47,042 nt of DNA from Pseudobdellovibrionaceae bacterium (GCA_947462815.1 CANHQR010000024.1:1-47042); one strand, 5' to 3'; shown: positions 5,550-36,650, numbered from the stretch's first letter. The notes: generated by a model not told the origin, from the letters alone. Made by a program: numbers and translations.

Positions 5550-7496
5550 ATGCAGAAAAATGAAATCCGTATCCTGATTGTCGATGATGACACTCGCTTG
5601 GGTCACACACTCAAGGAAGTCATCGCACGCGAGGGCTACATCTCATTTCATGTCACCAAACCGGAAGACGCGCTCGCGCAGGTCAAGCTGCACACCTACG
5701 CCTGCGTGGTGATCGACTGCATGCTTCCGAAGATGAATGGCCGTGATCTTGCCCAGCGAATCACGGCTGAATCCAACATGCCTCCTGCTATCATTCTGAT
5801 GTCGGGAATCTTTAAGGACAAAAAGTTCATTCAGGAGTCAATTCAGAAAACTGGCGCGCGACACTTTCTCACCAAACCCCTCGACATGGGTGAGTTGGCG
5901 ACAAAAGTGAATGAGTGCGTCCAGCACCTGATCGACATTGATGTGAATCCCATCATCGAACTCATGGGCAAAAAAGAGGCCACGCCGGGCGAGCGAATCG
6001 CAGCCTTCAATGGCTCAGAAAATGTTCACGGCTACGAACTTCCGTGGATCTTTGCCATGTTGCTGCACCCCAAAATCAACGGCAATTTGCACGTGATCTC
6101 CGCTGAAGGCGAAGCTTCCGTGATTGGCGTCAACAATGGCGAGATCGTCAGTGTTCTAAACAAAGATCAAAAGTCGTATTTCGGTGTCCTGCTCGTCGAG
6201 CACGGATTCATCTCTCAAGATGACCTCGATCGTGTCGCGAATGACAACCAAGGCAAAGGGCGACTCGGCCAGCGTCTCGTTGAGGCCAACGTGCTTTCCC
6301 CACACGCCATTCAGATTGTGATGACCGAGCAGCAAGGCTTGCGAATGGCGAAGATGGTTCGCGACACTTCGGTTCGTCTGCGATTTGAGGAGTCCAACGA
6401 TGTTCGCTTCGAGACGAGCATCGATCGCCGCCTGATGCTCGACATGTTCAATGACTGGGTCACGTCGAAACTCCCCCACGAATGGCTGAAGACACATTAC
6501 CAAGCCTGGAATCGGCACAGAGTGATTATAGGTAGTGAATTCCGAGCCGACCATCCCGCAATGAACGGCCCGGCTTCGCTGCGTGCGAGCCGCATGCTGG
6601 AGCTTTTCATGAAGATCGAAGAGTCCGGACTCACTCTGGAGCAACTGCTCGCTCAGTCCGAAACTCCAGATCATGAGTTTTTTCCAGCGCTGCATAATTT
6701 GATGTTGGGTGGCTGCTTACGATTTGGCGACGAGGTGAAGGCCTCGGACCATAAGATTCAACGCTTGCGTCTCAAGAAATTGCTCGAGGACCTCCAGCGC
6801 CAAAATTATTTTGAACGTTTGGGCGTGTCATCGAAAGCTCGCGAGAATGAGATTAAGCGCTCCTTCCACGAGTTTGCGAAGACCATTCATCCGGACAAGA
6901 TGGCGCGCGATACGCCACTCGACATTCGCGATCTCGCACGTCAGTGTTTCAACCTCATCACTGAGGCCTACGAAACCCTGCAAAATGCCACCGTCCGCGA
7001 AAACTACATGTTGGAATTAGAACAGGGTCGTGCTGAAAAAATTCTTGAGGCCGAACAGAACATGGAACAGGCAAGACTGTATCTCAGCAAGGGAGATGCA
7101 CGCCGTGCCAAAACACTCCTCGAAGATATACTCTTGAGTGTTCCCGTGACCACCGAGTTGCGCCTCCTGCTGATGTGGTCACAGATCAAAATGCCAGATG
7201 CCGAGCGCGATACCGGTTTGGCGAGCAGACTCAAAGATCAACTCACGGCAATCCCGCCGGAGGATCGACACAATCCGACTTACTTTTTCGTCAAAGGCCT
7301 CGTGCAAAAGGCGTCGAAAGATCTGGAGGGCGCTCGCCGCTCTTTCGAGCAGGCCGTGGGAATTGACATGGCCTTCAACGATGCCAAGCGCGAGCTGAAC
7401 ATCATCAACTTGCAAATCAAAGACAATAAGCCCGTCGACATTTTGCGCGGTGACCTCAAAGACGTGATCGGCCAACTCTTCAAAAAGAAGAAGTGA
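5550..7496 (+). CDS. Receiver / DUF4388 (PATAN) / J-domain / TPR regulatory protein
   Basis: A 648-residue soluble protein of four parts. Residues 1-120 form a receiver domain with the acidic pocket (IVDDD), phospho-acceptor D56 in VIDCMLPKMNG, and the conserved Lys in FLTKP. Residues about 150-330 resemble the DUF4388/PATAN domain common in delta-proteobacterial signalling proteins. Residues about 415-485 are a J domain with intact HPD at 447-449 and DnaJ-like flanks, which in known proteins stimulates DnaK ATPase. The rest is helical with TPR-like repeats and a Lys-rich end. No DNA-binding or enzymatic output domain is seen, so the inferred output is phosphorylation-controlled recruitment of DnaK or a partner. 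No histidine kinase is adjacent; a degenerate receiver protein follows, convergent. Confidence 0.85.
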   Translation: MQKNEIRILIVDDDTRLGHTLKEVIAREGYISFHVTKPEDALAQVKLHTYACVVIDCMLPKMNGRDLAQRITAESNMPPAIILMSGIFKDKKFIQESIQKTGARHFLTKPLDMGELATKVNECVQHLIDIDVNPIIELMGKKEATPGERIAAFNGSENVHGYELPWIFAMLLHPKINGNLHVISAEGEASVIGVNNGEIVSVLNKDQKSYFGVLLVEHGFISQDDLDRVANDNQGKGRLGQRLVEANVLSPHAIQIVMTEQQGLRMAKMVRDTSVRLRFEESNDVRFETSIDRRLMLDMFNDWVTSKLPHEWLKTHYQAWNRHRVIIGSEFRADHPAMNGPASLRASRMLELFMKIEESGLTLEQLLAQSETPDHEFFPALHNLMLGGCLRFGDEVKASDHKIQRLRLKKLLEDLQRQNYFERLGVSSKARENEIKRSFHEFAKTIHPDKMARDTPLDIRDLARQCFNLITEAYETLQNATVRENYMLELEQGRAEKILEAEQNMEQARLYLSKGDARRAKTLLEDILLSVPVTTELRLLLMWSQIKMPDAERDTGLASRLKDQLTAIPPEDRHNPTYFFVKGLVQKASKDLEGARRSFEQAVGIDMAFNDAKRELNIINLQIKDNKPVDILRGDLKDVIGQLFKKKK

Positions 7497-12763: not shown

Positions 12764-14599
12764 CTAGCCGCCAGCTCCGGGCCCAGTACCCTGACTCAGG
12801 CGTGGAGGCTGCAGTTTGAAGTCCGGCATAGCGCTCGGGAACTGCGGCCCTGTACGATCACCTGTGCGAATCTCATCAAAGGTCTTCAGCACAACAGCCG
12901 AGGCCACAACCCCCTGAACGGAGAACACGCGAATCAGTGCGATGGGACGGGTGAGGTCGGGGACACTCGTTTCGCTTCGGCGCTCCCCTCGACGAGCTTG
13001 CACGGACATCACATCTCCCGGGCGCAAATCTACATTGCCAGGATTCTCGAGGAACACGACGGCGCTATCGCCGAACATCTGGCGGTTATCTTCAAATTCG
13101 CCGCCGATAATGCGCACCTCTCCGGTGTTGCGTCGACCGTTCGTGGTCAACGACACGCGCCTCGGCTTCTCGTTGCGAACGATACTACCCACGCGCACAG
13201 GGCCGGCGGCAAAGATCACTTGGGCTCTGTACATACCCTGCGACTCATCGAGCACGTCCATCACTTCGATGTAGCCACCGGACTCGTAGCCCCAGCCAAT
13301 GCGCGTTCCGCTTTTATCTCGCACCGCCATGCGCTTGAAGTAAGTCGCCAAGCGATCGCCGGGATTCAACGACTCTTTGGATTTGATGAAAACGTTTTGA
13401 CCAATTCCCGCAACTAATTCCCCAGCCTCAACCTCTTCAATGGTGGCGACATGATCAGGTTCGTTTTCAAAGGCCTCATATCCCGGTACAATCGCGGGCG
13501 GCACAGTTTCGGCTTGGCCCTTGAGCTGCGTGATGCTGACCGTCGTATCGATCAACTTTTGTGTCGTCGGCTTGAAGGACCGTGGCAAATCGCGCAGCAC
13601 AGGCAGCGGTGATTGGGCAGGCGGCGGGATCTGAGGCTTCGCCAAAAGTTGATCCATTTCAATCACAGCACCCGCATCCAGCTCAGCCTGACTGATCTGT
13701 CCTTCGAAGTCTTCGCGATAGGTTGGCGGCGAATTGATGAGTTCGCGAATTTCATCGCGATCATTTCGCTGGCGACCACCTCGACGTGCGCTGCTCTCGG
13801 CATCTTCGGCGTCTCGAATCGCTGGAACTTCATCGATGCGCTCGAAGGCTCGCTTGGACTCTTCCGTCAGCTCGTCAGGCTCAACTTTGGTCACAGAGAC
13901 TCGAGGCCCCGAAGCCATAGTCCCCGCCAAGAACACCAGCTTTTGTCCGCGCGAAATCTGGTGAGGATTGCGAATGCTGGGGTTTTCGGCCCACAATCGC
14001 GACCAGTAAAATCCGTCTGCAAACAGAGTTTTTGAAAGATCCCAAAGCGTGTCGCCGCTTCGCACCTTGTAAGCTTCCGAAGCTTTTTCGCCGATCAGCT
14101 CTGTCCACTTGGTGTCCTCCACCGGCTCGGAGTTGGCGTAAATCTTGGCCAAGCGCTTTTCGAAGTCCTTGTTGGGCTCATCTGTTCCAGGCGCCAAAGA
14201 TTCGCTGGAAGCCGAGTCCAATTCAGTTTCAAGGTCGTCTTCCGCCTGAGGTGGGCGCGTCGCTTCGGGCTGCGCGGAGGACGTTGTCGACGCGTCGTTG
14301 GACTCCTCCTCGTTGGCGAGCTCGGCGTCCAAATCCCCTTCGCTGCTCTCAGCATTCAGTTCGTTTTCCAGTTCGCCCGACTCTTCGCCCTCATCGGTGA
14401 TTTCAAGATCGGCGTCTTCGACTGACGTATCCCCGCTGGTATCGGTTCCCGGATCTGCGACATCGTCGAGCTCCGCATCAATATTGTCTTCCAAATCCTG
14501 CGCCCACAACGAACTCGATGGGATGGAGATCAGCGCGCTCATCATCAGCGTGAGGACGATGGCAATTCCAACCGGAAACCCCGCGGACTTTGACTTCAT
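12764..14599 (-). CDS. Exported LysM-domain protein with acidic linker
   Basis: A 611-residue secreted protein. A signal peptide of about 33 residues (Lys-rich start, hydrophobic core, SLWA before QD) precedes a very acidic, Ser/Glu/Asp-rich segment (about 35-145). A LysM peptidoglycan-binding domain follows at about 177-224 (YKVRSGDTLWDLSKTLF, then NPHQISRGQKLVF). The 380-residue C-terminal region has no domain I can name; it looks beta-rich, with a GDRLATYF segment and VNEKPR-type stretches. The start overlaps the stop of the upstream TPR lipoprotein as ATGA, so both are made together. Probable role: peptidoglycan-linked envelope factor; no enzyme motif is seen. Confidence 0.85.
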   Translation of the reverse strand: MKSKSAGFPVGIAIVLTLMMSALISIPSSSLWAQDLEDNIDAELDDVADPGTDTSGDTSVEDADLEITDEGEESGELENELNAESSEGDLDAELANEEESNDASTTSSAQPEATRPPQAEDDLETELDSASSESLAPGTDEPNKDFEKRLAKIYANSEPVEDTKWTELIGEKASEAYKVRSGDTLWDLSKTLFADGFYWSRLWAENPSIRNPHQISRGQKLVFLAGTMASGPRVSVTKVEPDELTEESKRAFERIDEVPAIRDAEDAESSARRGGRQRNDRDEIRELINSPPTYREDFEGQISQAELDAGAVIEMDQLLAKPQIPPPAQSPLPVLRDLPRSFKPTTQKLIDTTVSITQLKGQAETVPPAIVPGYEAFENEPDHVATIEEVEAGELVAGIGQNVFIKSKESLNPGDRLATYFKRMAVRDKSGTRIGWGYESGGYIEVMDVLDESQGMYRAQVIFAAGPVRVGSIVRNEKPRRVSLTTNGRRNTGEVRIIGGEFEDNRQMFGDSAVVFLENPGNVDLRPGDVMSVQARRGERRSETSVPDLTRPIALIRVFSVQGVVASAVVLKTFDEIRTGDRTGPQFPSAMPDFKLQPPRLSQGTGPGAGG

Positions 14600-15618
14600 G
14601 GTGTACCTCGGCTCGCGCCCGTGGACGACGTTTCAGCGGCATGTGCAGCACGCTTTGATGTGGGACGAAGTTGCGATTCAAATTGCTGATCAATGAGCGC
14701 AAGTTCGAGGCTCGCACGGTAGGCCTCGGGGCTTCCTGGAAAGGTAGCGACGAGTTTACGAAACAAGGCTCGTCCCTCTTCCGCACTGCGATTCTTCGCC
14801 AGCAGGGCTTTGCCCAACAGTGCCGCCGCTCGTTTGTCACCTTGGGGGCACTTCAACAAGAGCGTGTCCCACAAAGACTCCGCACGCGTGACCTCGCCCT
14901 TGTCGAGCCAGGCCAAGGCCAACTGATGATAAGCATTGTCGAGCTCTGGCGAGTCCGTGAAACCGCGCTCCATCATGAGTACCACTCGTTCCGCATCTCC
15001 GAGCCGTTTGTGTCGAATCGCGGTGATGGCGGATTCATAAAGTTCTCGGTCACCTGCATCTAAGGCGCCCAATTCAGATGCCTCGAGAACATTTTCAGCT
15101 CCAGCCGCTTCACGATGTTTCGAGGCCGACTGAATTTGCGCCCACGCCGCCTCAGCCTCCGGGTCCATACCTTCATGAGCCACTTCCGGAGCCATCACGA
15201 CGGCCGGCGGTGCGGCCATAGGCTGAATCGTCGCCGAAGCATGCAGGCCGGCACTGGAGGCACGTCGCGCCTGAGGGTCGGCACTTCGGTCCTGCGGATA
15301 CGGTGGGAAGGCATCCAAGGGCGCAGGACCTTCGATCTCGCCGCGGCCGGTGATTTCCAGACTCTTCACCTTTTTGCGAAGCACCTGGTTTTGATCGAAA
15401 AGACTCTCCATCTTTCGACGCGTATCACGCAGTCGTTTTTCGAGCTGACGAACGCGCACTTCCGCTGGAGCTCCAGCTAGGGAAGAGGTCGCTCGAGATG
15501 CACCACCTTGCGTCGCACGGCCGGAATTCACGACTTCCTCACGCGACGACGAACTTTTTGATGAGGTCGGCCGGAGCGCACAAGAACTTAAGAACATCAT
15601 GTACAACACGAAGATCAT
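14596..15618 (-). CDS. Coiled-coil / TPR lipoprotein (CpoB/YbgF-like build)
   Basis: A 340-residue protein, assuming ATG 15618. The N-terminus has a short hydrophobic stretch ending LSSC, a plausible lipobox with the lipid Cys at residue 13, though positive charges are missing from the short form. A heptad-rich coiled coil (VRVRQLEKRLRDTRRKMESL onward) comes next, then a Pro/Ala linker, then TPR-type helical repeats (about 190-320). This order resembles CpoB/YbgF, which couples the Tol-Pal system to cell wall synthesis, but no tol or pal gene is here. The frame is open to 15711. It is translationally coupled to the LysM gene. Confidence 0.75.
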   Translation of the reverse strand: MIFVLYMMFLSSCALRPTSSKSSSSREEVVNSGRATQGGASRATSSLAGAPAEVRVRQLEKRLRDTRRKMESLFDQNQVLRKKVKSLEITGRGEIEGPAPLDAFPPYPQDRSADPQARRASSAGLHASATIQPMAAPPAVVMAPEVAHEGMDPEAEAAWAQIQSASKHREAAGAENVLEASELGALDAGDRELYESAITAIRHKRLGDAERVVLMMERGFTDSPELDNAYHQLALAWLDKGEVTRAESLWDTLLLKCPQGDKRAAALLGKALLAKNRSAEEGRALFRKLVATFPGSPEAYRASLELALIDQQFESQLRPTSKRAAHAAETSSTGASRGTP

Positions 15619-15815
15619 GAGGACTCTTCGCGGCGACCCCGTTGGAACATGCGGCCGCAAACATCGAGGCCCGTGCGACGTCCCTGTGCATGCCGTAAAA
15701 TGTGGACGCATCCGTGCATCCCCTTTCTCCAGTACGATTGAGAGCTGCGACCTCGGTCATCTTCGCGAAGACCACTTCACCAAGACTGACGCGCTCCCGC
15801 CCTAACTCCGCCACT

Positions 15816-16148
15816 TTAGTTTAGCGACTCCGGCATGCGCTTGAAAGCGAGTCGTTTCAAGGGTCTAGGTTCAGTGACGGCGATGTCATGGCCAAAGCCG
15901 CGGATCATCAAACTCCTTGCCCACGAGGCCGCGTGTGAGCGTCCGGGAACGAGGGCCCCAAATCTATAGTAGGCCCGCCCACGGCCCTCGAGCGATGCTT
16001 TTTCAACCAACAGTTCTCGACCTTCGGCGTAGGAGAAAAGCTCGGTCCTCAGTTCCATCACGAAGGGCCATAACAATTCCTCCAAGATTTCAAATCCTTC
16101 GCGACAGATCTGCGCGATGTGTACGAGTCCGAAGCGAAGCTTTGCCAC
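15816..16148 (-). CDS. Small hypothetical protein, 110 residues
   Basis: A GTG-started frame with codon use and composition like its neighbours, which is why I accept it although no family is recognised. It is soluble, basic and probably alpha/beta, with a middle section GRGRAYYRFGALVPGRSHA and a C-terminal block rich in Arg and Lys. No signal peptide or membrane segment is present. The stop lies about 200 bases before the lipoprotein start on the same strand, so it may head that operon. A further GTG frame begins just after its stop (15814) and overlaps the lipoprotein start; I do not accept that one. Confidence 0.5.
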   Translation of the reverse strand: MAKLRFGLVHIAQICREGFEILEELLWPFVMELRTELFSYAEGRELLVEKASLEGRGRAYYRFGALVPGRSHAASWARSLMIRGFGHDIAVTEPRPLKRLAFKRMPESLN

Positions 16149-16476
16149 CCGCCAGACCGCGCCTTCGGATCAACATGCTATAAAATCAGGCGCATCTTCG
16201 ACCTACTTTGACAGAGTTTTCCACAACAAATGTGGACGACTCCATCGCCAAGACCTTAGACCCGTTGATAGACAAGGGTTTCAGCGTTCTGCTGCAGCTT
16301 TCATCACGACATAAATATATGTGATGACTGGCATTTCCATCAGTTTCACCACCTTCTCCGCAGCTTTGTTTTAGGTCTTAAATCCGACATTCGGAGACCT
16401 TACAGAAAGTGACAAAACTAGATGGGCTTCGCTTCGCTTCTGATCAAGCCAACTAAGCTTGCAAGGCTCCTGAAGA
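16149..16476. promoter_or_regulatory. Divergent regulatory region upstream of the ComEC-like gene
   Basis: No gene is seen in these 328 AT-richer bases, but several dyads are: TCCACA/TGTGGA with a 5-base gap (16221-16237), whose left part is TTTTCCACA (16218-16226), matching the DnaA-box pattern TTWTNCACA; TCATCAC/GTGATGA around an AT-rich 13-base spacer (16301-16327); and AGGTCT/AGACCT with a 16-base spacer (16373-16400). TTGACA occurs at 16209-16214 but lacks a good -10 at normal distance. Promoter positions are unresolved. Confidence 0.5.
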
Positions 16477-17703
16477 ATGTGGCGATTTTCTCTTCTTGCA
16501 ACGGCATGTACTCTCCTCACGAGTCAGTTTTTGTCTAATTTCACCGCATCGTGGTCAGAACCCTTCCACAAGACATGCCTCTCCTTGGCTCCGGCAGTTC
16601 TGTCGCGCGATGTCCTGCAATCGCTGATCTGCGGGGCGCCTCTGTCGAGTTCGGTCGACGCCGCAGTGTGGAAGCAACTGGGGCTCGTTCACCTCTTAGT
16701 CGTCAGCGGCGGCCATCTCGTCATCGTCGATCTTGTGTTGATGAGTGTCATGAAATGGGTCGGGTTCTTACATCGCTTCCCGAAGCTGACGGCGCTCATC
16801 CGTTGGACGGCCCTGAGTGCGATGATGATAGCGAATCAGTTTGCCCCGCCGATTTGGCGAGCCTACCTGGCGATGGCCCTTCGTGAACCTCTTCGTCGTC
16901 GTGGTTGGACTTCCACACAGCGCGGATTGGCCGCTTTCTGGCTGGCCTTGTCCACGGTGAAATCACGCGGCGACTTGATGTCTCTGAGCCTCTCAGCCAT
17001 TTGTGCGTGGGTACTCACATGGCCGAGGCCACAACTTCGTCCCATCAAGCGCCTCCCATCGACTTGGCGACAACGTCTTCGAGACGCCCTCCTCAAACTT
17101 GGGCCGCAACTCGTCTGGGCTTTACTCATTCAAACTCTGATCTGGTGGGGCACCTGGCCCCTGATCGCCTCGATGGGCGCCCCTCATCCTTTGGCAACGA
17201 TGAGCAATCTGGTCTTGGCGCCGCTCTTGGGACTCTTGCTCTTACCGCTCGCGCTTCTTGCTCTCTTCGTTCATGCCGATTGGATCCAATTGACTTGGGA
17301 ATCGATATGGTCGCTGACGCAAAACGGACTGCAGCTATTGGCATCGGCTTTACCTCTCACCTCGGCCAGAGAGACGTTATCGAGTTTGGAGTGGGCGCTC
17401 TTATCGATCGCAATGAGTGCGATCTTGATCCTTGTCATGATTCAAGAAAGATCTGCCGCTCGCAACGCCAATCTGGGACGAAGTCCACGCATCCAACTCG
17501 GGCTCATGGTGTTGCTGAGCCTCCTCGCAATCGCCACGCCGCCTCGGCCACGCCTACGATCTCAGAGTTCCGATGTTCGACATGCAACTCATGCCCCCGC
17601 TGGAGCTTCTGATGCTGAAGGCCCACAAAAAGAAAAGCCTGTAGGCTTTCACCTACAGGCTCGCTGTCCCTCATCCGATGATCGAAATCAGTTCGCCGAG
17701 TAA
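16477..17703 (+). CDS. ComEC/Rec2-type DNA uptake channel core, truncated and probably frameshifted
   Basis: A 408-codon polytopic membrane protein. The segment GLVHLLVVSGGHL at about 70-81 is the ComEC signature, where family members have G-SHLLAISGLH, and PPIWRAYLA near 128 fits the next conserved helix. ComEC forms the inner-membrane channel for single-stranded DNA in transformation. Compared with full ComEC (600-800 residues) both the N-terminal OB-fold and the C-terminal metallo-beta-lactamase domain are missing. The last 50 codons have unusual third-position composition and pass through the ald terminator into ald itself; a +1 frame change near 17519-17546 would give a more natural end at 17644. 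The ribosome site is weak. A relic, a short form or an assembly error are all possible. Confidence 0.75.
   Translation: MWRFSLLATACTLLTSQFLSNFTASWSEPFHKTCLSLAPAVLSRDVLQSLICGAPLSSSVDAAVWKQLGLVHLLVVSGGHLVIVDLVLMSVMKWVGFLHRFPKLTALIRWTALSAMMIANQFAPPIWRAYLAMALREPLRRRGWTSTQRGLAAFWLALSTVKSRGDLMSLSLSAICAWVLTWPRPQLRPIKRLPSTWRQRLRDALLKLGPQLVWALLIQTLIWWGTWPLIASMGAPHPLATMSNLVLAPLLGLLLLPLALLALFVHADWIQLTWESIWSLTQNGLQLLASALPLTSARETLSSLEWALLSIAMSAILILVMIQERSAARNANLGRSPRIQLGLMVLLSLLAIATPPRPRLRSQSSDVRHATHAPAGASDAEGPQKEKPVGFHLQARCPSSDDRNQFAE
17546..17644 (+). other. Likely true 3' end of the ComEC-like gene in frame 2
   Basis: In the frame one base ahead of the annotated one, the codons from 17546 encode GHAYDLRVPMFDMQLMPP and then a hydrophobic stretch ending in Lys-Lys-Lys-Ser-Leu before TAG. 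About 25 of 32 codons end in G or C, against about 8 of 32 in the annotated frame over the same bases. The stop lies at the edge of the ald terminator, avoiding any overlap with ald. Frame 2 is closed upstream by a TGA at 17516, so the shift must lie after that. Confidence 0.55.
17627..17661 (-). terminator. Intrinsic terminator of ald
   Basis: On the minus strand a perfect 10-bp stem, AGCCTGTAGG / CCTACAGGCT, with a 6-base loop is followed by TTTTCTTTTTG. It lies 27 bases beyond the ald stop and within the apparent 3' end of the convergent ComEC-like frame. Confidence 0.9.
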
Positions 17704-25714: not shown

Positions 25715-26608
25715 ATGGTCGACTCGCCTCCGAACTCGCCTAAAAAACAGTCATCCTCTCGCCCTGAGTCTGCGGCCGGCCCCAACACGCGACCTCATGC
25801 CTCACAAACCGGGCATCTCGGACCACTGCCCACCAGCGACTTCATCGAACGCTGCCAACTCGATTACCAGCGCAATCCCGGATCAAAGGTCTTTGCCCCC
25901 TTAGCCGAAGCGTATCGGCGCCTAGGACTCTTGCCACAAGCTTTCGAGGTTGCGAGCCGAGGGGTGCGCCTTCACCCCAACTTCGCGGCCGGCCGAATTG
26001 CTTTCGCTCGCGTCTTGATCGATCAAGGCGCCCTTGAAGACGCACGCGATCAGCTCATCTCAGCCGGCGAGCTTTCTCCTGACAACTTGCTCGCCTTTCA
26101 ACTCCTGGGTGATGTGTTTTTGCAACTCCGCCGGCCTCGCGAGGCCTTGCAGGCCTACAAAATGGTGCTGCTGCTCAACCCCCAACACGAGCGAGCCCAA
26201 CAGGTGGTCCGCAAATGGGAGTTTTTGTCGGCCGACGAGTTCGAAGACGAGGTTTTTGAAGCCGCCGAAGAGGCACCGCTTCGCGCGTCGGACGACCACG
26301 AGGAACTGGATCCCGAACTTTTTGAGCGCGAGCTGCATCGCACTTTGTCTATGGCGGATGCCTTAACCATCCGCAATGACCTACAGGCCGCCTTTGATCG
26401 ACTGCGTCGGGCTCGACGTCTGCTCGGACCTCATGACGAATTGGATCGTCGACTGCGCATGCTGGCGCAACGCCTGCATTTGAGCGAAGCCGAACTCGCG
26501 GGTGCGATGCGTGTTCGACGAACCGCTCAGGAGAAGAAGCGCGAGCGGCTCGAGTTGCTGCTGAAACGCATTCAGGAGCGCACGCGAAGGCCTCGAGCCG
26601 AGGGTTGA
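25715..26608 (+). CDS. Cytoplasmic TPR protein
   Basis: A 297-residue protein without signal peptide. After a 40-residue Pro/Ser-rich start come three to four TPR units (about 50-170), for example PGSKVFAPLAEAYRRLGLLP and LLAFQLLGDVFLQLRRPREA. An acidic stretch (DEFEDEVFEAAEE) separates them from a strongly basic, helical C-terminus that could bind nucleic acid or form a coiled coil. Function is not known; TPR domains mediate protein contacts. It precedes efp by 68 bases on the same strand and may be co-transcribed with it. The upstream neighbour ruvC is divergent. Confidence 0.75.
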   Translation: MVDSPPNSPKKQSSSRPESAAGPNTRPHASQTGHLGPLPTSDFIERCQLDYQRNPGSKVFAPLAEAYRRLGLLPQAFEVASRGVRLHPNFAAGRIAFARVLIDQGALEDARDQLISAGELSPDNLLAFQLLGDVFLQLRRPREALQAYKMVLLLNPQHERAQQVVRKWEFLSADEFEDEVFEAAEEAPLRASDDHEELDPELFERELHRTLSMADALTIRNDLQAAFDRLRRARRLLGPHDELDRRLRMLAQRLHLSEAELAGAMRVRRTAQEKKRERLELLLKRIQERTRRPRAEG

Positions 26609-26676: not shown

Positions 26677-27240
26677 ATGTATCAGCTTTCAGATTTCAAA
26701 AAAGGCATGAAGATTATGGTCGAAGGTCAACCCTTCGTCATCACCGACTTCCAACACGTGAAGCCCGGCAAAGGTAACCAGTTCACACGCTGCAAAGCTC
26801 GAAATCTTCTGACCGGTCAGAACCGAGAGTGGACCTTCAAACAGGGCGAAAAGTTCGAAGTCCCCGATATATCCACTCAGGACATGCAGTTCCTCTACAA
26901 AGACGACAATGGCTATGCGTTCATGAATCAAACGAACTATGAGCAGATCTCGCTCAACGACGAGGATGTCGGCGAAGCCAAAAACTATCTCATCGAAAAT
27001 CTGGACTGCGTGATTGTGTTCTTTAACGGCAAAGCCATCGGCGTCGACGTTCCGAACGCGGTCAATCTCAAGGTCGCAAAGACAGACCCAAACTTCAAAG
27101 GCAACACCGTGACGGGTGCAACAAAACCCGCAACCTTGGAGACCGGGTACGTCGTACATGTGCCGATGCACATCAGCGAAGGCGATCTCCTGCGCGTCGA
27201 TACGCGAACCGGCGAGTATGTCGAACGCGTGAACAAGTGA
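26677..27240 (+). CDS. efp: Translation elongation factor P
   Basis: EF-P enters the ribosomal E site and relieves stalling at consecutive prolines. The 187-residue length and three beta-barrel domains are normal; KPGKGNQF carries K32, the position of the modified Lys (beta-lysylated in enterobacteria), and the C-terminus DTRTGEYVERVNK is the family signature. ATG 26677 is preceded by GGGGGA; the frame is open 24 codons further, overlapping the TPR gene, but that part does not fit the family. Proline-rich products nearby, such as the tail at 2-127, fit a need for EF-P, though this is only suggestive. No epmA or epmB is visible. Confidence 0.97.
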   Translation: MYQLSDFKKGMKIMVEGQPFVITDFQHVKPGKGNQFTRCKARNLLTGQNREWTFKQGEKFEVPDISTQDMQFLYKDDNGYAFMNQTNYEQISLNDEDVGEAKNYLIENLDCVIVFFNGKAIGVDVPNAVNLKVAKTDPNFKGNTVTGATKPATLETGYVVHVPMHISEGDLLRVDTRTGEYVERVNK

Positions 27241-27587
27241 GCCGCGTCGCCATTCAGCGCACGCAACACGGCTCGCTTTGAATAGGGGCGAGCCGACAGC
27301 CCGCCCCCTCCACCAGCTGGAGAGCCGGTTAATGAGTCAGACTCCACACGTCCTTTCTCAAAATCCTTTCCTTAAAATCCTCACTGGCCACCTCGTCGGC
27401 ACCTCGCTGGCACGTCAGCGGCAGGTCATTGGCAACTCATTTGCGGCGAATCAGGACTCGCCCGCAACTCTTGGCTTGTTGGGGTCAGTGTTAGATCTGT
27501 TGCAAGAGCCCTCATCAAACTCTGACTTGTGTGACTCGCTCGATTGAGCTACCAGCTCTGTCGCAACCCTAACCCGAGGTGATCGCG
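27241..27587 (+). other. Spacer between efp and a secreted protein; possible small ORF
   Basis: A 7-bp dyad CGGCTCG/CGAGCCG with a 13-base loop (27269-27295) follows efp and may end its transcript, though no T-run is present. A frame from ATG 27332 to TGA 27547 (71 residues) has GGAGAG seven bases upstream and is otherwise featureless; it could be a real small protein, but codon use does not decide, and I do not list it as a gene. Confidence 0.35.
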
Positions 27588-28076
27588 ATGAACGGCCTGA
27601 CTCGATTTGCTCAAAGCACAGCTCCGCAAATTTCCGTAAAGACCCCAAAGCTCCTCCTCGCCTTGGCTCTCACAACGCTCGCATTGACGACACCTTCCAT
27701 CGGTCACGCGACAGGTCTTGAACTCTCTCCCGAAATGATTCGCCTCGCACAAAGTGAAGCTGAGAAATTTCTCGATTACAGCGACAATGAAATTGCCGGA
27801 GGCCTCAGTGGCGAGATTCAAAAGCCACGTCTGGAAAACATCGTCGAGATGAGCCCTGGCGTTTGGATGGCGACGATTGTCAGCGAAGCCTTCTATTACA
27901 GCCAAGACTTCGACTTCGGTGACCCTGTGGATGAGGTGGACACCGTTTGCCGTACCGACATTGAAGCTCGACAGGTCAATTTGGACTTATCTCTGAAGGC
28001 TTTGAAGACCACCTGTGATCTCGACCCTCGCCTCGAGGCCGCCGAGGACGAAGGAATCATTCAAGACGAACCCTAA
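27588..28076 (+). CDS. Secreted hypothetical protein
   Basis: A 162-residue protein with a long signal peptide: a polar start with Lys near residue 19, a hydrophobic core (LLLALALTTLALTTP) and a likely cut after SIGHA, near residue 41. The mature part is acidic, about 120 residues, with two Cys near the C-terminus (CRTD and CDLD) that may pair in the periplasm. No known family is recognised. ATG 27588 is preferred over the in-frame GTG at 27579, which lies in the GAGGTG ribosome site. A strong hairpin follows the stop. Confidence 0.65.
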   Translation: MNGLTRFAQSTAPQISVKTPKLLLALALTTLALTTPSIGHATGLELSPEMIRLAQSEAEKFLDYSDNEIAGGLSGEIQKPRLENIVEMSPGVWMATIVSEAFYYSQDFDFGDPVDEVDTVCRTDIEARQVNLDLSLKALKTTCDLDPRLEAAEDEGIIQDEP

Positions 28077-28401: not shown

Positions 28402-29475
28402 ATGAGTTCCCAGCTCGAAACTGAAATTCAAAGCCTACTCGCCGATTCCGGCGAGGTCAGCCTCGTCGCTGACTTGCTGCTGCGTCGTTGGGAACGCAAC
28501 ATACTTTCCCCCGAAGACGTTCGCGCCTTCACACGCTTTCTCATCAACGCTCAGCTCTACCCCACACTTCTTACCCAAATTCGCGCGCGCCTCGGCGAAG
28601 ATGCGCCTGTGCCGTGGGGTGAATTCGTTGAATGTCTCGCGCAAATGGGCGTGGCGTTAGAAAGTTTCGAGATCGACGCGCTCTTTGAAGGCGCTCGCCG
28701 ATTTGAAGGAGGCCTGGACGATCTCAGCGATTCACGTGCTCTAGATCATGTGAAGCCTCAAGTCGCTCAGCACCGGCAAACACGCCTGGCTCGCTTAAGA
28801 GAAGAGCTCGACGAGCGTCGCCAAGACTTACGACGCCGCTTAGAATACGCACGCGTTAATCGCCTCCTTCAACAAGAGCGAAAAGTTCTCGAAGAATTGC
28901 ACCTTCTCGATCCCGACGACCCGGAAGTTCGTCGCGAGAAGAATGCCTTAGCTTTTCGCGAGGCTCAAGACGTCATCGACGCTGCGCTCTCGCACACGCC
29001 ACCTCGAGAGGAGTTAGAATTAAAAGCACTGGAGCTTCCCATGGATCTCAAACCCGAAGCTCAAGCGCTCATCGCGCAAGTTCAAAAGCGCGCCTCAACT
29101 TCCCCCCAGGAAACGCTGGTCTACGATCTTGCCATGCTGCTGATCAACATGGACTTGCCCGCGGCCGCAGCCGATCTACTTGATCAACATCGGCAGATCT
29201 CGTCGCCGCGTTATCGATTGCTTTGGCTTAGACTGGAGGCTTTGTTACTCGCAAAGCAATACGCTGGCGCGCTCGCAGAAGTGCAAGTTTTGGAAAGTAA
29301 ACTTTTTGGTCAACCTGATGCGACATTTGCTCTGACGTACGCGAGAGCTCAGGCACTTTGGGGGCTTAAAGAAACCGTCACCGCGATCGAACTCATGCGA
29401 GGAATTGTAAAGGTGCGACCCGGTTATCGATTGGCTAACTCACTTCTTCTCCAGTGGCAGACTGAGGCCCCATGA
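28402..29475 (+). CDS. Cytoplasmic helical/TPR protein coupled to tamB
   Basis: A 357-residue protein without signal peptide or membrane segment. The first 110 residues are helical; a basic coiled-coil region (about 120-170, with LREELDERRQDLRRRLEYAR) follows; the C-terminal 170 residues show TPR-like pairs such as LVYDLAMLLINMDLPAAAADLL and LLWLRLEALLLAKQYAGALAEV. No enzyme motif is seen. ATG 28402 is chosen by where native-looking sequence begins; there is almost no leader between it and a -10-like TATTAT. Its stop overlaps the tamB start as ATGA, so stoichiometric production with TamB is likely. It could be a cytoplasmic partner of the envelope machinery, which is inference only. Confidence 0.75.
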   Translation: MSSQLETEIQSLLADSGEVSLVADLLLRRWERNILSPEDVRAFTRFLINAQLYPTLLTQIRARLGEDAPVPWGEFVECLAQMGVALESFEIDALFEGARRFEGGLDDLSDSRALDHVKPQVAQHRQTRLARLREELDERRQDLRRRLEYARVNRLLQQERKVLEELHLLDPDDPEVRREKNALAFREAQDVIDAALSHTPPREELELKALELPMDLKPEAQALIAQVQKRASTSPQETLVYDLAMLLINMDLPAAAADLLDQHRQISSPRYRLLWLRLEALLLAKQYAGALAEVQVLESKLFGQPDATFALTYARAQALWGLKETVTAIELMRGIVKVRPGYRLANSLLLQWQTEAP

Positions 29476-32400
29476 GCGATCAACCGACGCCATCCCTACA
29501 AGCACCGTCCCCGCCCTCCGCATCCCGTCGTGGACGCCAGCGCCGGCTGATCATTCTTTCCGTGCTCGTCGCAAGTATTTCTTTTGTTCTCGGCACGATT
29601 GTCGCCCAAACTCTCCCGAAGATGCGCAGCTGGCTGCTTGTGACCATCGATCGCATTAGCCAAGAGCACCTTCCTGTTCGAATCATTCCCGGCACGGTCA
29701 GTTTTCGACTTTTTCCTTTGGGCGCAAGCTTCTATGACACCCGCATCCTGCCGAAGCCCGACGCCCCCTTCCAGCTTTCACCTCTCCAGATCGAAGAAGT
29801 TTCCGCTGATCTCTCATTCTTGGCCGTGATTTCGGGCGAGGTGGCCCTCAATCACGTACGGGTCGCGGGCACCCAGCTCGAGCTCGGATTACCTCAACGC
29901 ACATCTTCAGGCGGGCCGCCACTTGAGGGTTTGTTTCATGCTCTCGACGCCGTTCCAATTGATGAACTTGAAATTGAGAACGTGAGTGCGAAAATTCGAC
30001 TTCCCCAGGGCGGCTGGCAACTGAGCCTTGATCAACTGCAACTGAGTTCGCAACGATCGCGGCGTAAACTTCAAATTGAAGCGAACCTCGACTCACTTTT
30101 GATTTCACGTCGTGCCACGCGAGCCACGCCCGAATTCTCAATTCGTTTGTCGCCTCGGCTGGACCTGACTCTGACTCCGGACCGGATCGAAGTTGACCAA
30201 CTTCAGTTGCAACGAGGCGGCACCGAATTAGAACTACAAGGCGAGCTGGTCGGCAACACTGAAGCCCTGCGCTTTAAGAACGGCCGCATGGAACTCAACG
30301 CCCAGGTCGATGTGCGCTCGATGAACGAGTGGCTCATCAAAAATCAGACATGGGCTGCCAAAAATCCACCGATGTCGGGCAAATTGAAGCTCAAAACCAA
30401 AGCCTTACTCAAGTCACCCTCCAGGGCTTCGCCGCCAAAATCGCCATCCAACACGGAGTCGACTCCCGAACCGAGCTGGACCGCCGAGGCCGACGTGAGC
30501 ACAGAAGGCTACATCGTTGAGGGCCTATTGCTCGATCGCGTGAGCGGCATCGGCAAATGGGATGGCCGATTGTTGCGCTTTCCGAAGGTAAAAGTCGATT
30601 CGCCAGCAAAAAAACTACAGTTCGAAGATCTCAAAATCGGCGAGGCGCCCTCAGCGAGCCTTTCTCCTCCGACCTCAGATCCAACGTCTTCCGTGAGCGC
30701 GATCTCAACCGAAAAGACCGAGCGCAAAATCGTCCTCCAAATCGGCCGCATGAGTGGGCAGCTTAATCTTCACGAGTTCTTTGCGCTGTCGCCGAGTCTC
30801 GGTCGTATTCCCGTTTGGACAACCGCAGCTGTCGATGCCCCCTGCGAGGCGGAGCTCAGCCCCCAATTTCTACTTCGCTGTGGTGGAGAGCTTCGACTCA
30901 GCGAGATCATCGTCCGCAATGACCTAAAATCAGGTCCCCAAGTTGCAGACGCGATTGTGGCCCTGCCTCGCTTTGATCTTCAGGGCGAAGCCACTTTCGA
31001 TCTCGATCAAATGCGCTTTAAAACATTGATGGCGATGCCGAACTCCAAAGGTATGGCGCAAGGTGAAGTGGGCTACCTCACAGGATTCGATATTCGTTAC
31101 GAAGCCGAACAACTCGAGTTCAGAGACGTCGCTTCGCTCAGCGGCCTCAAACTCGAAGGCGCTTTACAAAAGGTTCGCGGCAAGACATCGGGCTCATCGA
31201 AGGCCGCAGAATTCTCTTTTCAAGCCGAGGGACAGGATTTGTGGTTTGAGGACTTCTGGCTGGGCTCTCCAAGTGCTGAGGTTTCCTACAAGTCAGGAAT
31301 CTTGAACTTCCTCAATATGCAAGGCTATCTCAGCACGTCGCGATATTCAGGAGACATTAAAGTCGATCTGGATCAATCACGAATCTCCGTCGCGGCCCGC
31401 TTCCCCTTCATTGATGCCAAGGATCTTCTCAAGGCGCTTTCGCGCAAAGCCCAGGTCCCGATCCAATTCACCGGTTCGGGCCAAGCGACCGTTCGCGCCA
31501 CGGGTCCAATGGCCTTGGGTAAATTGACGTATGATCTGAAGTCATCGCTGTTCAAAGGCAGTGTCGCCGGTGAGTCCTTCGACGTTTTTCATTTCGACTT
31601 GAAGTCCAAGGACGGCGAAGTTCGCACAGAGCGTGTCCTTTTCAAGCATGGCGATGCGGAGATCACTCTGACAGGGCAAGGGCATCCTAACGGCGAGATT
31701 GAAACTCAGGTTCGCGGTCGAGACATCCGCCTGGAAAACACCAACACCATTGCAAACTCAGGTTTTGGAATGAGCGGCCAGCTCAATTTCGAAATGGATT
31801 TGAAGGGACCCGTGCTCGCTCCGGACGCACTCATGCGGGCTCGACTGACCAAGACGGCCATCGCCGAAGCCAGCGTACCAGATTCGGCATTTGACCTTCG
31901 CTTCGCACGAAACCGAATCGAAGGCTCAGGACAGCTCCTCGGAGATGTCCTGGCCGGAGATTTCATTTGGCCTTTCGAGCCCGAAGCTCCCTTACTTCTC
32001 AAACTTCGCGCCAATGAGTGGAACTTTGCACCGATCTTTGCCGCTCTTGCTGGTCCCGCCTCGCGCAAGGATTTTGAAGCTGAGTTGACTGGCGTCATTG
32101 ATTTACAAGCTCCTCGCGGCGGACTTTGGAGTTCGACAGGAAAAGTTGATCTCAAGAAATTGAGACTCAGCCGAGGACCTATCAACATTGCAAATGAAGA
32201 GCCGATCCGCGCTCAAATCCGTGATGGAAACTTCGATATCCAAAGCTTTGAGCTCAAGGGCGAAGAAACTTTCGTCAAAATTGAAAACCGACCTGGCTCT
32301 AACCGTGACACGAAATTGGACATCGACGTGCAAACGAAGGTGGATCTCTCCCTCTTTTCGATTCTGACTCCCTTTTTCGAAGAGCTTCGCGGACTCTTTT

Positions 32401-33626
32401 CGAGCAAAGTTTCCATCAAAGCAGGGCCTGATCGCGGGACCATTATCGGAACAGCCTATGTTGAAAGAGGCTTCATCAAGTTCCCAGCCTTCCCGCATCC
32501 CTTTGAGAATATTCGGGCGGATGTGAACTTCAATCAGCGCAGCATGCAGATCAATTCCATCAAATCCGACTTCGCTTCGGGTCGATTGAGTGGCGCGGGA
32601 GAAGTGGTATTTCGAGGTCCCCGCGACTTACCCGTCAATGTGGTCGGAAACTTTGATCGGATCACGCTCAATGTTCCTCAAGACATTCGTACGACCGGCT
32701 CAGGTGAGTTCAGCTTCACCGGCAATTGGTTTCCTTTCCTGTTAAAAGGCAATTACGAAATCTATAACGGACTTTTCTCTCTGGAAATGTCAGGCGGCAA
32801 AACCGCTGCGGAAGTCCGGGCTCGTCGTGAACAGTATCTACCCAAGTTTCTTCGCGAAGACAGTACATCTCCCATCATCGTCGATCTGAATATCGAGACA
32901 AAGGCCGGCCTGCCTCTCAAAACCTCGCAGATCGAAGGACAAGCTTCAGCCAAACTGCAGGTCACGGGCGATCCCACCAAACCCATCATTCGAGGTGAAG
33001 TCCGCACTCTCCCTGAAACTAAAGTTATCTTTCAGAAAAACATTTTTGACGTCACCAATGCTGTGCTTGATTTTCAAGGTACCGAAGAGATCAATCCCCT
33101 TCTCAACGTTCAGGCGCGCACTCGAGTTGCCGAATACGACGTCGCTCTTCTTGTCCAGGGCACAGCACAGAAGCCGGAGATTCAGTTCCAAAGCGTTCCG
33201 CCTCTCCCCGAGCGAGACTTGATCGCCCTTCTCGCCGTCGGGACAACGCAAGAAGGCACAGCCGGCGCGAGTAATTTGGGTCAGGCGGCGATCACGGGCG
33301 TAATCAACCCGATCACAGGTGGAATTGGGCGGCAGTTCGGTTTGGATGTCCAGCTTTCCCATGGTTGTGACGAAAATAACGAGTGTGCTCCCAAATTCAC
33401 AGCCGCCAAACGGATCAATCAGCGGTTGTCGGTTTCGGGCACCCGAAGTTTCGGAAAGCGACAAGAGACCGATGCCAAGCTCAACTATAGGCTGACCGAT
33501 CGCGTGTCCGTGGTCGGCAGTTGGCAAGGAAATGAATTTAACGAACAAGCTGAGCAAGGTGGGCAAAACGCTCGAAACCAAGATCGCTTGGGCTTGGACT
33601 TTGAGTATAAGTTTGAATTCAAATAG
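29472..33626 (+). CDS. tamB: Translocation and assembly module protein TamB (AsmA-like)
   Basis: A 1384-residue protein with one N-terminal membrane anchor (about 25-48) and a very long periplasmic body of beta-strand repeats that ends in the TamB/DUF490 domain (about 1000-1384). TamB-type proteins span the periplasm as hydrophobic grooves and are linked to phospholipid transport and outer membrane protein assembly, usually with an Omp85 partner. The C-terminal part has the typical GDPTKPIIRGEV, FQGTEEINPLLNVQARTRV (split across lines of the motif) and PPLPERDLIALLAVGTTQ segments. Length is within the family range. The start overlaps the upstream TPR gene; the Omp85 gene begins six bases after the stop. 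Confidence 0.93.
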   Translation: MSDQPTPSLQAPSPPSASRRGRQRRLIILSVLVASISFVLGTIVAQTLPKMRSWLLVTIDRISQEHLPVRIIPGTVSFRLFPLGASFYDTRILPKPDAPFQLSPLQIEEVSADLSFLAVISGEVALNHVRVAGTQLELGLPQRTSSGGPPLEGLFHALDAVPIDELEIENVSAKIRLPQGGWQLSLDQLQLSSQRSRRKLQIEANLDSLLISRRATRATPEFSIRLSPRLDLTLTPDRIEVDQLQLQRGGTELELQGELVGNTEALRFKNGRMELNAQVDVRSMNEWLIKNQTWAAKNPPMSGKLKLKTKALLKSPSRASPPKSPSNTESTPEPSWTAEADVSTEGYIVEGLLLDRVSGIGKWDGRLLRFPKVKVDSPAKKLQFEDLKIGEAPSASLSPPTSDPTSSVSAISTEKTERKIVLQIGRMSGQLNLHEFFALSPSLGRIPVWTTAAVDAPCEAELSPQFLLRCGGELRLSEIIVRNDLKSGPQVADAIVALPRFDLQGEATFDLDQMRFKTLMAMPNSKGMAQGEVGYLTGFDIRYEAEQLEFRDVASLSGLKLEGALQKVRGKTSGSSKAAEFSFQAEGQDLWFEDFWLGSPSAEVSYKSGILNFLNMQGYLSTSRYSGDIKVDLDQSRISVAARFPFIDAKDLLKALSRKAQVPIQFTGSGQATVRATGPMALGKLTYDLKSSLFKGSVAGESFDVFHFDLKSKDGEVRTERVLFKHGDAEITLTGQGHPNGEIETQVRGRDIRLENTNTIANSGFGMSGQLNFEMDLKGPVLAPDALMRARLTKTAIAEASVPDSAFDLRFARNRIEGSGQLLGDVLAGDFIWPFEPEAPLLLKLRANEWNFAPIFAALAGPASRKDFEAELTGVIDLQAPRGGLWSSTGKVDLKKLRLSRGPINIANEEPIRAQIRDGNFDIQSFELKGEETFVKIENRPGSNRDTKLDIDVQTKVDLSLFSILTPFFEELRGLFSSKVSIKAGPDRGTIIGTAYVERGFIKFPAFPHPFENIRADVNFNQRSMQINSIKSDFASGRLSGAGEVVFRGPRDLPVNVVGNFDRITLNVPQDIRTTGSGEFSFTGNWFPFLLKGNYEIYNGLFSLEMSGGKTAAEVRARREQYLPKFLREDSTSPIIVDLNIETKAGLPLKTSQIEGQASAKLQVTGDPTKPIIRGEVRTLPETKVIFQKNIFDVTNAVLDFQGTEEINPLLNVQARTRVAEYDVALLVQGTAQKPEIQFQSVPPLPERDLIALLAVGTTQEGTAGASNLGQAAITGVINPITGGIGRQFGLDVQLSHGCDENNECAPKFTAAKRINQRLSVSGTRSFGKRQETDAKLNYRLTDRVSVVGSWQGNEFNEQAEQGGQNARNQDRLGLDFEYKFEFK

Positions 33627-33632
33627 GTGACG

Positions 33633-36600
33633 ATGCAAAGGCGGAGCGTGAGTCTCAAATTCTTCCATGAGCTTGTCGCGACGATCTCGTCGAAGACAGC
33701 GACGTCGCATCCAGTTTTGGCCGTGCATTGTCTTGCTCTGTGTATTTTAGCGCTTCTTTTTTCGACTGACATCGCGATCGCACAGTCCGTGACCCAATCG
33801 ACACCCAAGCATTACATGAAGTTCAACGGTGTCTCCCCCAAGGAAGGCAAAGAGCTGCAAAAGAAGTTTCCCCATTTCTTTCAGCGCGAAGTGACGCTTG
33901 CGGAGATCGACGAGCTGGTTCGATACCTCATGCAAACCAAACGCTTTTCGAATATTGACGTCATTCGCCGGCAGAATACCGAAGACGGCCCCCACCTTCT
34001 TTTGGTGGCCACCGAACTTCGCAAAATCGTCGAGATCAAGATCCAAGGCGCACGTGCGATACCAGAAGCCGAGGTCCGACGCTTTCTCAAGATCAATGAA
34101 GGCCAAGCTTTCGAACGCAAAGAGGTCTTGGACGGACGAGATGCCCTGAAGACCGAGTACACCAATCGGGGCTACGTCAACGCGGAGTTCGAGGTGGATT
34201 TTCCTCGCTTCACGGACACCGAAGTCTCCGTTGAGGTTCGGATCCGTGAGGGCTCACCCATTCGGATTTCATCAGTTGTCTTTGAAACGGCGAATACCGA
34301 ATTGAAACAACGCCTCACCAACTATGCCCGACGATTCCGAGGCCAAGCTTTGACTCGCGACGAGCGCGAGAACATTCGTCTCGACGTTGTCCGCTACCTT
34401 CGCGAGCAGCGGTATCTCACCGCACAGCTCCTGGAACCACAGCTCCAGCAAATGCAGCAAGGCCAAGAGCAAACGGACAAAAGTCAGTTTCGTATGTCAT
34501 TTACCGTGGAGAGCCCTTGGCGATATCAGTTCCTGTTTGAAGGTCTTTCGGCCTTTTCTGCATCGTCGCTCATCCGCAATCTCAATCTCGAACAGCTGGG
34601 CGGATCGGTTTCGACTCCTGCCCCCGAGCTCGCCGAGAAGCTTCGCCGACACTACCGAAACGCAGGCTATGCTCATGTGGAAGTTAAGACGGAAGACCGG
34701 GTGGTCGCGGAGAATTGGCTTCACGAAATCAAATTCATTGTTGAGGAAGGCCCAAGAGTTCGAATTCGGAATATCGAGATCACCGGGAACATCTCTCGAC
34801 CCGGGTCCTACTATGCCAATTGGGTAAGATCCTCCTCTTCCGATCTGATCGGACAGGGCTATTACAACAAGGCCGATATCGAAGAGGGAATAAAACAACT
34901 CGAGCGTGAGCTTCAATTCCAAGGTTTCCATCGCGCCAAAGTTAAAAACTGGCGAACAGAATTCAACAAGACCGCTCAAGATCGCCAAGCCGAACGCGAA
35001 GGGCGCAAGAGCCGCGGCTCGCAGGCTTCGGTGATTCTCAACATCGACGAAGGCCCGCTGACGATTGTTCGTCAGGTCAAATTCGAAGGCGCGGAAGCCT
35101 TCTCACGGGTGCAACTGGCGAACCTCCTGCCACTCAAAGCTGGCCAAGCTCTGCTCAACTCCGATTTGCTGGAGTCCATCGAACGACTCAAACAGTTCTA
35201 TCAATCGCAGGGCTACCTCGAGATGCAGATTACCAACGAGCGTAGCCCTGACTCGCTCGTGACCTACAACGACACGAGTACGCAAGCGACCGTGGACTTT
35301 CAAATCTACGAAGGTCCGCGCGTCGTCATCTCCAACATCGTGCTCGAGGGCAATGACTTTACCCAAGACTACGTGATTCTTCGCGAGATTGAGGTTCAGC
35401 CCGGCGACATCTTCACGCCCGAGGCGGCTGAAGAGATTCGCTATAACCTCACTCGCCTCGGCCTCTTCAGTAAAGTCGAAGTCCGCACGAGCGAAGAAGG
35501 TACACGGATTGCGGAGCGGACATTAGTCATTCGCGTCGAGGAGCGAGATCCCGGACTCTTCACCGCGGGTGTCGGGGTTGTTCAGGATCGCGATCTCATC
35601 TTTCGTGGCTACGCCGGATTCGTCTATCGAAACCTCTATGGCACGGGCAGATCCGTCAGCGCTCGCATTGACCCCAGCTACTCGACGGATCCCAAGATCT
35701 CTTATCTCGAACACAAGATCACACTCGGTTACACGGAGCCCTACATCTTCGGCGATCGCAACCGCGGTCGTCTCAATCTTGTTCGTGAGCTCAAGTTTTT
35801 CGAATTCGATGACCGCGATCGGACGATCATTCAGGAAAAGAACGCTCTGGGTCTTTTAATCGACAAGGACTTCACTAAGAATATCAAACTCACTTTCACA
35901 GCCTACGACTTTTCGAGTCTCACGCAGTTCGACCGACGCTCCTACGACATCAAAAGAACGCAAAACATTGCGAAGGTCGGCCCTCTCTTTGAGTTCGATT
36001 GGCGTGACAACATTTTCAACCCAACCAAGGGAAGTTACAGCTCGATCGGTGCTGAGTACTCAGATCCCAACATCGGAAGCTCTGAAGACATCAGCCAAAG
36101 CATCAAATTCGTCAAAGCGACGGCTTCGACGGCGCTTTACACACGGCTTTGGCGCCAAGATCCACGTTGGGTATTCGCAAACGCCGTTCGCGTCGGTTAT
36201 CTACGTAACCTCTCCGAGCGCACACCCAGCGGCGTGCCGTATGAAGAATCCTTTGTCTTGGGAGGACGCGCCACCATTCGTGGTTTCGACGGCTCTGACA
36301 TCGAGCGTGTGCCCAACCTCAATCAACTCGGTGTCGCCAACCGTCGGGACTTCTACATGACAGGTGAGTCGACCTACTACCTGATCAAGAGCGAGTTGCG
36401 CTTCCCGATCATGGCCAACACCAGCTTTGGCGAGATCTCCGGAGCTTTCTTCTACGATGGTGGCGCAGTTAAACTCACGCAACGCGAGTTCGAAGGCTCC
36501 TACCGTGATTCAGCAGGAGCCGCGCTCCGAATCGGCGTCGCGGGCGGCATCCTCGTGAGTCTCGAGTACGGTTTTAAGCTGACTCGCCGGACTTGGGATG

Positions 36601-36650
36601 GCGTCCAGGAAAGTCCGGGATCCTTTCATTTGTCGATTGGAACCTTCTAA
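33633..36650 (+). CDS. Omp85-family outer membrane protein with about seven POTRA domains
   Basis: A 1005-residue protein with a signal peptide (hydrophobic core LALCILALLFSTDIAIA), a long periplasmic part and a C-terminal barrel from about residue 637. I count seven POTRA-like units, beginning near residues 55, 128, 208, 295, 374, 475 and 562; most start with PhxI-type strands and end in EG before the next. The barrel carries the IRGF motif (882-885), the VRGF-type lid contact of BamA, and ends in LSIGTF with a terminal Phe. BamA has five POTRAs and TamA three. Adjacent to tamB, this may act as its TamA partner or as the BamA of the cell. ATG 33633 has AGGTGA just upstream; GTG 33627 is also possible. 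Confidence 0.9.
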   Translation: MQRRSVSLKFFHELVATISSKTATSHPVLAVHCLALCILALLFSTDIAIAQSVTQSTPKHYMKFNGVSPKEGKELQKKFPHFFQREVTLAEIDELVRYLMQTKRFSNIDVIRRQNTEDGPHLLLVATELRKIVEIKIQGARAIPEAEVRRFLKINEGQAFERKEVLDGRDALKTEYTNRGYVNAEFEVDFPRFTDTEVSVEVRIREGSPIRISSVVFETANTELKQRLTNYARRFRGQALTRDERENIRLDVVRYLREQRYLTAQLLEPQLQQMQQGQEQTDKSQFRMSFTVESPWRYQFLFEGLSAFSASSLIRNLNLEQLGGSVSTPAPELAEKLRRHYRNAGYAHVEVKTEDRVVAENWLHEIKFIVEEGPRVRIRNIEITGNISRPGSYYANWVRSSSSDLIGQGYYNKADIEEGIKQLERELQFQGFHRAKVKNWRTEFNKTAQDRQAEREGRKSRGSQASVILNIDEGPLTIVRQVKFEGAEAFSRVQLANLLPLKAGQALLNSDLLESIERLKQFYQSQGYLEMQITNERSPDSLVTYNDTSTQATVDFQIYEGPRVVISNIVLEGNDFTQDYVILREIEVQPGDIFTPEAAEEIRYNLTRLGLFSKVEVRTSEEGTRIAERTLVIRVEERDPGLFTAGVGVVQDRDLIFRGYAGFVYRNLYGTGRSVSARIDPSYSTDPKISYLEHKITLGYTEPYIFGDRNRGRLNLVRELKFFEFDDRDRTIIQEKNALGLLIDKDFTKNIKLTFTAYDFSSLTQFDRRSYDIKRTQNIAKVGPLFEFDWRDNIFNPTKGSYSSIGAEYSDPNIGSSEDISQSIKFVKATASTALYTRLWRQDPRWVFANAVRVGYLRNLSERTPSGVPYEESFVLGGRATIRGFDGSDIERVPNLNQLGVANRRDFYMTGESTYYLIKSELRFPIMANTSFGEISGAFFYDGGAVKLTQREFEGSYRDSAGAALRIGVAGGILVSLEYGFKLTRRTWDGVQESPGSFHLSIGTF

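Follow-up and report, generated by a model that had tools for sequence, protein, structure and literature searches.

On the plus strand of a 47,042-nucleotide stretch of DNA from a Pseudobdellovibrionaceae bacterium (the window) is a cassette of three abutting genes encoding a soluble TPR protein, TamB and a seven-POTRA Omp85 protein. The cassette is already known in kind, being a new instance of an operon published for Bdellovibrio bacteriovorus, and probably represents the SgmX1-tamB-tamA operon of Bdellovibrionota (the bd2492-bd2494-bd2495 locus), whose adaptor would link a polarity hub to envelope and pilus work. The identity of the TPR gene is thereby settled: it belongs to a published predation-hub operon. 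Its breadth, which covers nearly the whole phylum with exact overlaps, loss in two families and survival without MglA, makes a general trait of what had been observed in a single predator; together with the MglA-less cases, this breadth usefully extends the literature that we found. The features of the cassette and of its upstream context are as follows.

25715–26608, plus strand: second TPR protein, syntenic with SgmX2 (Bd2490); context
26677–27240, plus strand: elongation factor P gene (efp), between the two TPR genes; context
28402–29475, plus strand: TPR protein, 357 aa, soluble; orthologue of Bd2492 (TPR_Bd, SgmX1)
29472–29475, plus strand: ATGA, the tamB start overlapping the TPR stop
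29472–33626, plus strand: TamB, 1384 aa, with a 25-residue tail followed by the N-terminal membrane helix (PF04357, 1.4e-47)
32574–33620, plus strand: C-terminal TamB (DUF490) domain
33633–36650, plus strand: TamB-linked Omp85 protein, 1005 aa; alternative start GTG 33627
33813–35543, plus strand: seven POTRA domains, residues 61–637 (AlphaFold secondary structure; Pfam POTRA)
35556–36644, plus strand: 16-strand β-barrel, residues 642–1004 (AlphaFold model)

The three genes and their products

The TPR open reading frame runs from ATG 28402 to the stop TGA ending at 29475. A longer in-frame option begins at GTG 28015; as alignments with relatives begin at residues 2–5 of the shorter product, ATG 28402 is taken as the right start. 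The N-terminus is free of a hydrophobic segment, and a soluble TPR fold lacking a signal peptide is predicted. Pfam gives a weak match under the cut-off (TPR_14, E 0.0018), and the AlphaFold model is all-helical and TPR-like, with a mean pLDDT of 88. The best local match of this model is a bacterial YbgF TPR domain (TMt of 0.75 and r.m.s.d. of 2.8 Å). Among solved structures, the TPR protein matched only generic TPR proteins, at weak E-values. The core, at approximately residues 130–335, is conserved phylum-wide. Homologues from the genus Bdellovibrio (E 1e-31 to 1e-41) are about 30% identical to the window protein, and the TPR protein of one relative, G039, has 353 aa when read from a TTG start, equal to the reported length of Bd2492. 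Judged by sequence, the window TPR protein is the single-copy orthologue of Bd2492.

Immediately downstream is the sole full-length tamB of the host genome. Its product has the hallmarks of the PF04357 family: a C-terminal DUF490 domain, an N-terminal membrane anchor and great length. Two starts are possible for omp85: GTG 33627, which adjoins the tamB stop, and ATG 33633, which six bases separate from that stop. The coordinates of these frames bear out the first-pass annotation, which had described three genes running without a gap, an ATGA overlap between the first two and an omp85 start six bases after tamB. Terminator-like sites in the region are rarer than in shuffled sequence and none falls between the three genes; a separate promoter or terminator at the junctions was rejected, as nothing rose above the shuffles.

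The Omp85 protein matches both Pfam POTRA (2e-42) and Omp85 (2e-28). Seven POTRA domains had been assigned to it from the sequence, and the AlphaFold model does contain seven β-α-α-β-β units. In canonical TamA the POTRA domains number three, and its gene precedes tamB. As in the Proteobacterial TAM (tamA-tamB of Escherichia coli), TamB is here paired with an adjoining Omp85 protein; unlike it, the window has tamB first, seven POTRA domains and a BamA-like score, whereas the canonical TAM operon has no TPR gene. The score for canonical TamA (NCBIfam ATportTamA) is 50.6 bits against a cut-off of 625, and that for BamA (TIGR03303) is 317 bits against a cut-off of 297. Nor does the protein fit the main BamA, which would have five POTRA domains and be the best BamA of its genome. 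A stronger, canonical BamA (616 bits) is encoded on another contig of the host, C83, and the window Omp85 is thus the partner of TamB and not the main BamA.

Published counterparts of the cassette

In B. bacteriovorus, the genes bd2492-bd2494-bd2495 encode a 353-aa TPR protein, a DUF490/TamB protein and a seven-POTRA Omp85 protein; they are co-transcribed, and synteny of the operon extends to Bacteriovorax marinus and to Myxococcus xanthus (Milner 2014, PMC3983030). The first-pass annotation had not counted a TPR protein among the standard members of such a cassette. For Bdellovibrionota this is wrong, the operon and its co-transcription having been published in 2014 for B. bacteriovorus (PMC3983030). 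The window resembles the HD100 locus in gene order, strand, tight junctions, a soluble TPR protein some 355 aa long, a TamB with DUF490 and a seven-POTRA Omp85, as well as in the SgmX2-like gene and efp upstream and an MglA encoded elsewhere in the genome. It differs in the low identity of its TPR protein to those of the genus Bdellovibrio and in a longer, basic TamB tail (25 residues against 3); moreover, the window organism is known from the genes of a draft assembly alone, whereas predation and MglA binding are B. bacteriovorus data.

Bd2492 and the Ras-like GTPase MglA form a 1:1 complex, their binding having been shown by pull-down, two-hybrid and co-purification, and Bd2492 is located at the invasive pole and required for prey invasion (PMC3983030). 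It is now named SgmX1, and the nearby TPR protein Bd2490 is SgmX2 (PMC11025332). An AlphaFold-Multimer model of MglA with Bd2492 has an ipTM of 0.898 (PMC12034629). The TPR protein has MglA, CdgA and RomR as its reported partners, the last being disputed, as a later assay failed to reproduce the contact with RomR (PMC11025332). These partners point to pole and pilus control. A supply of lipid or protein from the cytoplasm to the periplasmic bridge, as had been suggested from the sequence, finds no support.

In M. xanthus, MXAN_5766-5763 (SgmX, a SecA-like ATPase, TamB and Omp85) likewise has a TPR gene that precedes those for TamB and Omp85. Like the window-type orthologue in B. bacteriovorus, SgmX is an MglA effector: with MglA-GTP it activates type IV pili (PMC7519303, PMC7668184). 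It differs in its size (1,060 aa with 14 TPRs) and in the extra ATPase gene that intervenes. The similarity between SgmX and Bd2492 is reported to be marginal or very slight (PMC11025332), an assessment with which PMC7519303 disagrees; the name SgmX may accordingly mislead. TamB-BamA operons occur in Borrelia and Acidobacteria (PMC4494059), in which TamB is also linked to a BamA-type Omp85, the Acidobacteria also having a second BamA copy. Unlike the Spirochaetes, whose linked protein is their only BamA and has five POTRA domains (PMC4494059), the window host has a separate canonical BamA.

Conservation in the order and across the phylum

Within the order, 60 relatives were searched and loci were fetched for the profile matches. 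A relative of the TPR protein is present in 56 of these genomes, one per genome, with one genome split over two contigs. Every complete locus has the TPR-tamB-omp85 triplet in the same order and on the same strand, including that of G042, although the first TPR search missed this genome. Of the three remaining genomes with no TPR match, G015 and G030 have tamB contigs that are cut short of where the TPR gene would lie, and the sequence of G009 is in fragments. The overlap of the tamB start with the TPR stop is exactly 4 bases in 45/55 loci and 1–26 bases in the others, and omp85 starts at most 10 bases from the tamB stop in 48/51. The abutting same-strand arrangement of TPR gene, tamB and omp85 is that of the Bd2492–Bd2495 operon.

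Across the 291 Bdellovibrionota genomes of the phylum set, the profile trained on the order matches 183, and its best, albeit weak, matches in other classes directly precede tamB in almost every case that was checked. A further 66 fetched loci represent other classes and the remainder of the phylum, a few of them belonging to the same class or order. An open reading frame matching the TPR profile abuts tamB in 58 of the 64 of these that are untruncated, and an Omp85 gene follows tamB in 65/66. A narrower scan with the back-translated sequence found 17 contigs, nearly all from Bdellovibrionota members. Iterated outside the order, the profile drifted toward general TPR sequences and took in the SgmX2-like gene; owing to this drift, orthology of the TPR protein is firm only within the class, and outside it rests on synteny.

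A chance adjacency of a generic TPR gene would have in its favour that TPR proteins are common, that the Pfam TPR score is weak and that the iterated profile took in a second TPR gene. Against it, nearly every relative in the order has exactly one match to the order-trained profile, invariably at tamB, and the best matches in other classes likewise lie beside tamB. Recurring in every complete order locus, with the overlap exactly 4 bases in 45 of 55, the arrangement is not due to chance, and synteny leaves this reading with practically no probability. The TPR gene was thus correctly described from the sequence as locked to tamB: it is single-copy and adjacent through the order and abuts tamB in most of the phylum. 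TPR homologues lying mostly away from tamB, which would have spoken against this, were looked for in both sets and the search did not overturn it.

Two families, f19 and f22, are exceptions in keeping tamB-omp85 with no detectable TPR gene alongside. At the f22 loci (L176 in G077 and L186 in G084), the gene directly before tamB, in the place of the TPR gene, is by our own reading biotin carboxylase-like, and the SgmX2-like gene is further upstream. Within the order, the SgmX2-like gene and efp precede the cassette in 45/52 loci, and SgmX2-efp-SgmX1-tamB-omp85 as a block has the look of a single ancient cluster.

Some individual loci deviate. In genus g15, TPR matches at G187:C1:1317806-1318858 and G266:C51:26214-27266 were reported with one internal TGA. 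At 13291–17280 of locus L167, the open Omp85 frame has 1330 aa as compared with about 930 in relatives, which could mean only that the frame stays open further upstream, or that it is fused to the end of tamB. In the window, a 165-aa frame with a signal-peptide-like start (27579–28076) lies between efp and the TPR gene; it has no Pfam match and is absent from the loci of relatives.

A proposed polar adaptor and envelope bridge

The TPR protein is expected to serve as a cytoplasmic adaptor, which in B. bacteriovorus, according to others' work, binds MglA at one pole and is needed for prey invasion. From their families, TamB would span the periplasm and meet the seven-POTRA Omp85, forming a bridge from inner to outer membrane. 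This bridge may insert outer membrane proteins and perhaps carry phospholipid, as suggested by the general TAM literature. The stop/start overlaps would couple translation of adaptor and bridge, so that both are made together. At the pole, the adaptor would connect the polarity hub (MglA, possibly with RomR and CdgA) with envelope and pilus work, by either of two routes: it may place or regulate TamAB, or it may act on type IV pili and be merely co-produced with TamAB.

Consistent with such a hub, the host genome encodes MglA (G000:C1:138688-139272; 68% identity to MglA of G039), and PilQ is also present. As a test, co-occurrence with MglA is weak, as MglA is found in 279/291 phylum genomes. 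It was undetected, even at E 0.01, in the other 12, including 4/4 genomes of family f16 and two of genus g61. These are mostly incomplete MAGs, although G061, G064 and G065 are 94–98% complete. The MglA-less G061, G065, G078, G085, G091 and G165 nevertheless retain a TPR gene directly adjoining tamB (loci L170, L193 and L203–L206). In f16, PilQ is present though MglA is undetected in all four sampled genomes, and a short TPR gene of 165–247 aa, with mainly the C-terminal repeats kept, lies at tamB in all three fetched tamB loci. With the cassette kept in several MglA-less genomes, MglA cannot be the whole explanation for the linkage.

In one alternative, along the lines suggested from the sequence, the TPR protein would assist the TamAB bridge directly from the cytoplasm, as a cofactor that gates, scaffolds or feeds it, and MglA binding would be a later addition. 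The phylum-wide adjacency to tamB, the translational coupling and the retention of the cassette in the MglA-less genomes listed above argue for it. The cytoplasmic tail of TamB, on which such a protein might dock, has 25 residues in the window; in most members TamB is almost devoid of one, with 3 residues in the genus Bdellovibrio and a median of 6 over 55 order loci. A complex of the TPR protein with the TamB N-terminus is accordingly unlikely as a general mechanism, the tail being too short in most members, and a TPR–TamB contact through it appears unlikely on the sequences compared. The TPR protein might instead contact the membrane, another inner-membrane protein, or neither. In addition, two families keep tamB-omp85 with no detectable adjoining TPR gene, and host-independent B. 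bacteriovorus survives deletion of the TPR gene, whereas no deletion of tamA, which appears essential, was obtained (PMC3983030). TamAB thus seems to work without the TPR protein, and we regard the direct cofactor as unlikely. The short TPR gene kept at tamB in f16 genomes that lack MglA led us to consider a related proposal, that the ancestral job of the TPR protein was tied to TamAB and not to MglA, making it a phylum-wide cytoplasmic controller of the bridge, with MglA control being one lineage's use of it; this we consider improbable.

A second alternative holds that the TPR protein acts with MglA on polar type IV pili in the manner of SgmX, and that it shares with TamAB the timing of envelope synthesis and no joint function. 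The action of SgmX on type IV pili through MglA-GTP (PMC7519303, PMC7668184) is in line with it, as are the PilQ-family match in 19/19 genomes tested, MglA-less ones included, and the presence of the housekeeping gene for EF-P in the same block. A linkage so strong and old, with its exact overlap, nevertheless exceeds what shared timing would need, and the pilus role of Bd2492 is putative in the literature. Co-expression of this kind is a real possibility, short of an even chance. An adaptor linking the polarity hub to both envelope and pilus work remains the reading that we favour. The MglA-less and TPR-less lineages provide natural test cases for deciding which of MglA, pili and TamAB the adaptor works for.

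Distant from the cassette, at 5550–7496 of the window, an unusual combination of domains was observed, in which one chain joins a response regulator receiver to DUF4388 and a DnaJ domain.
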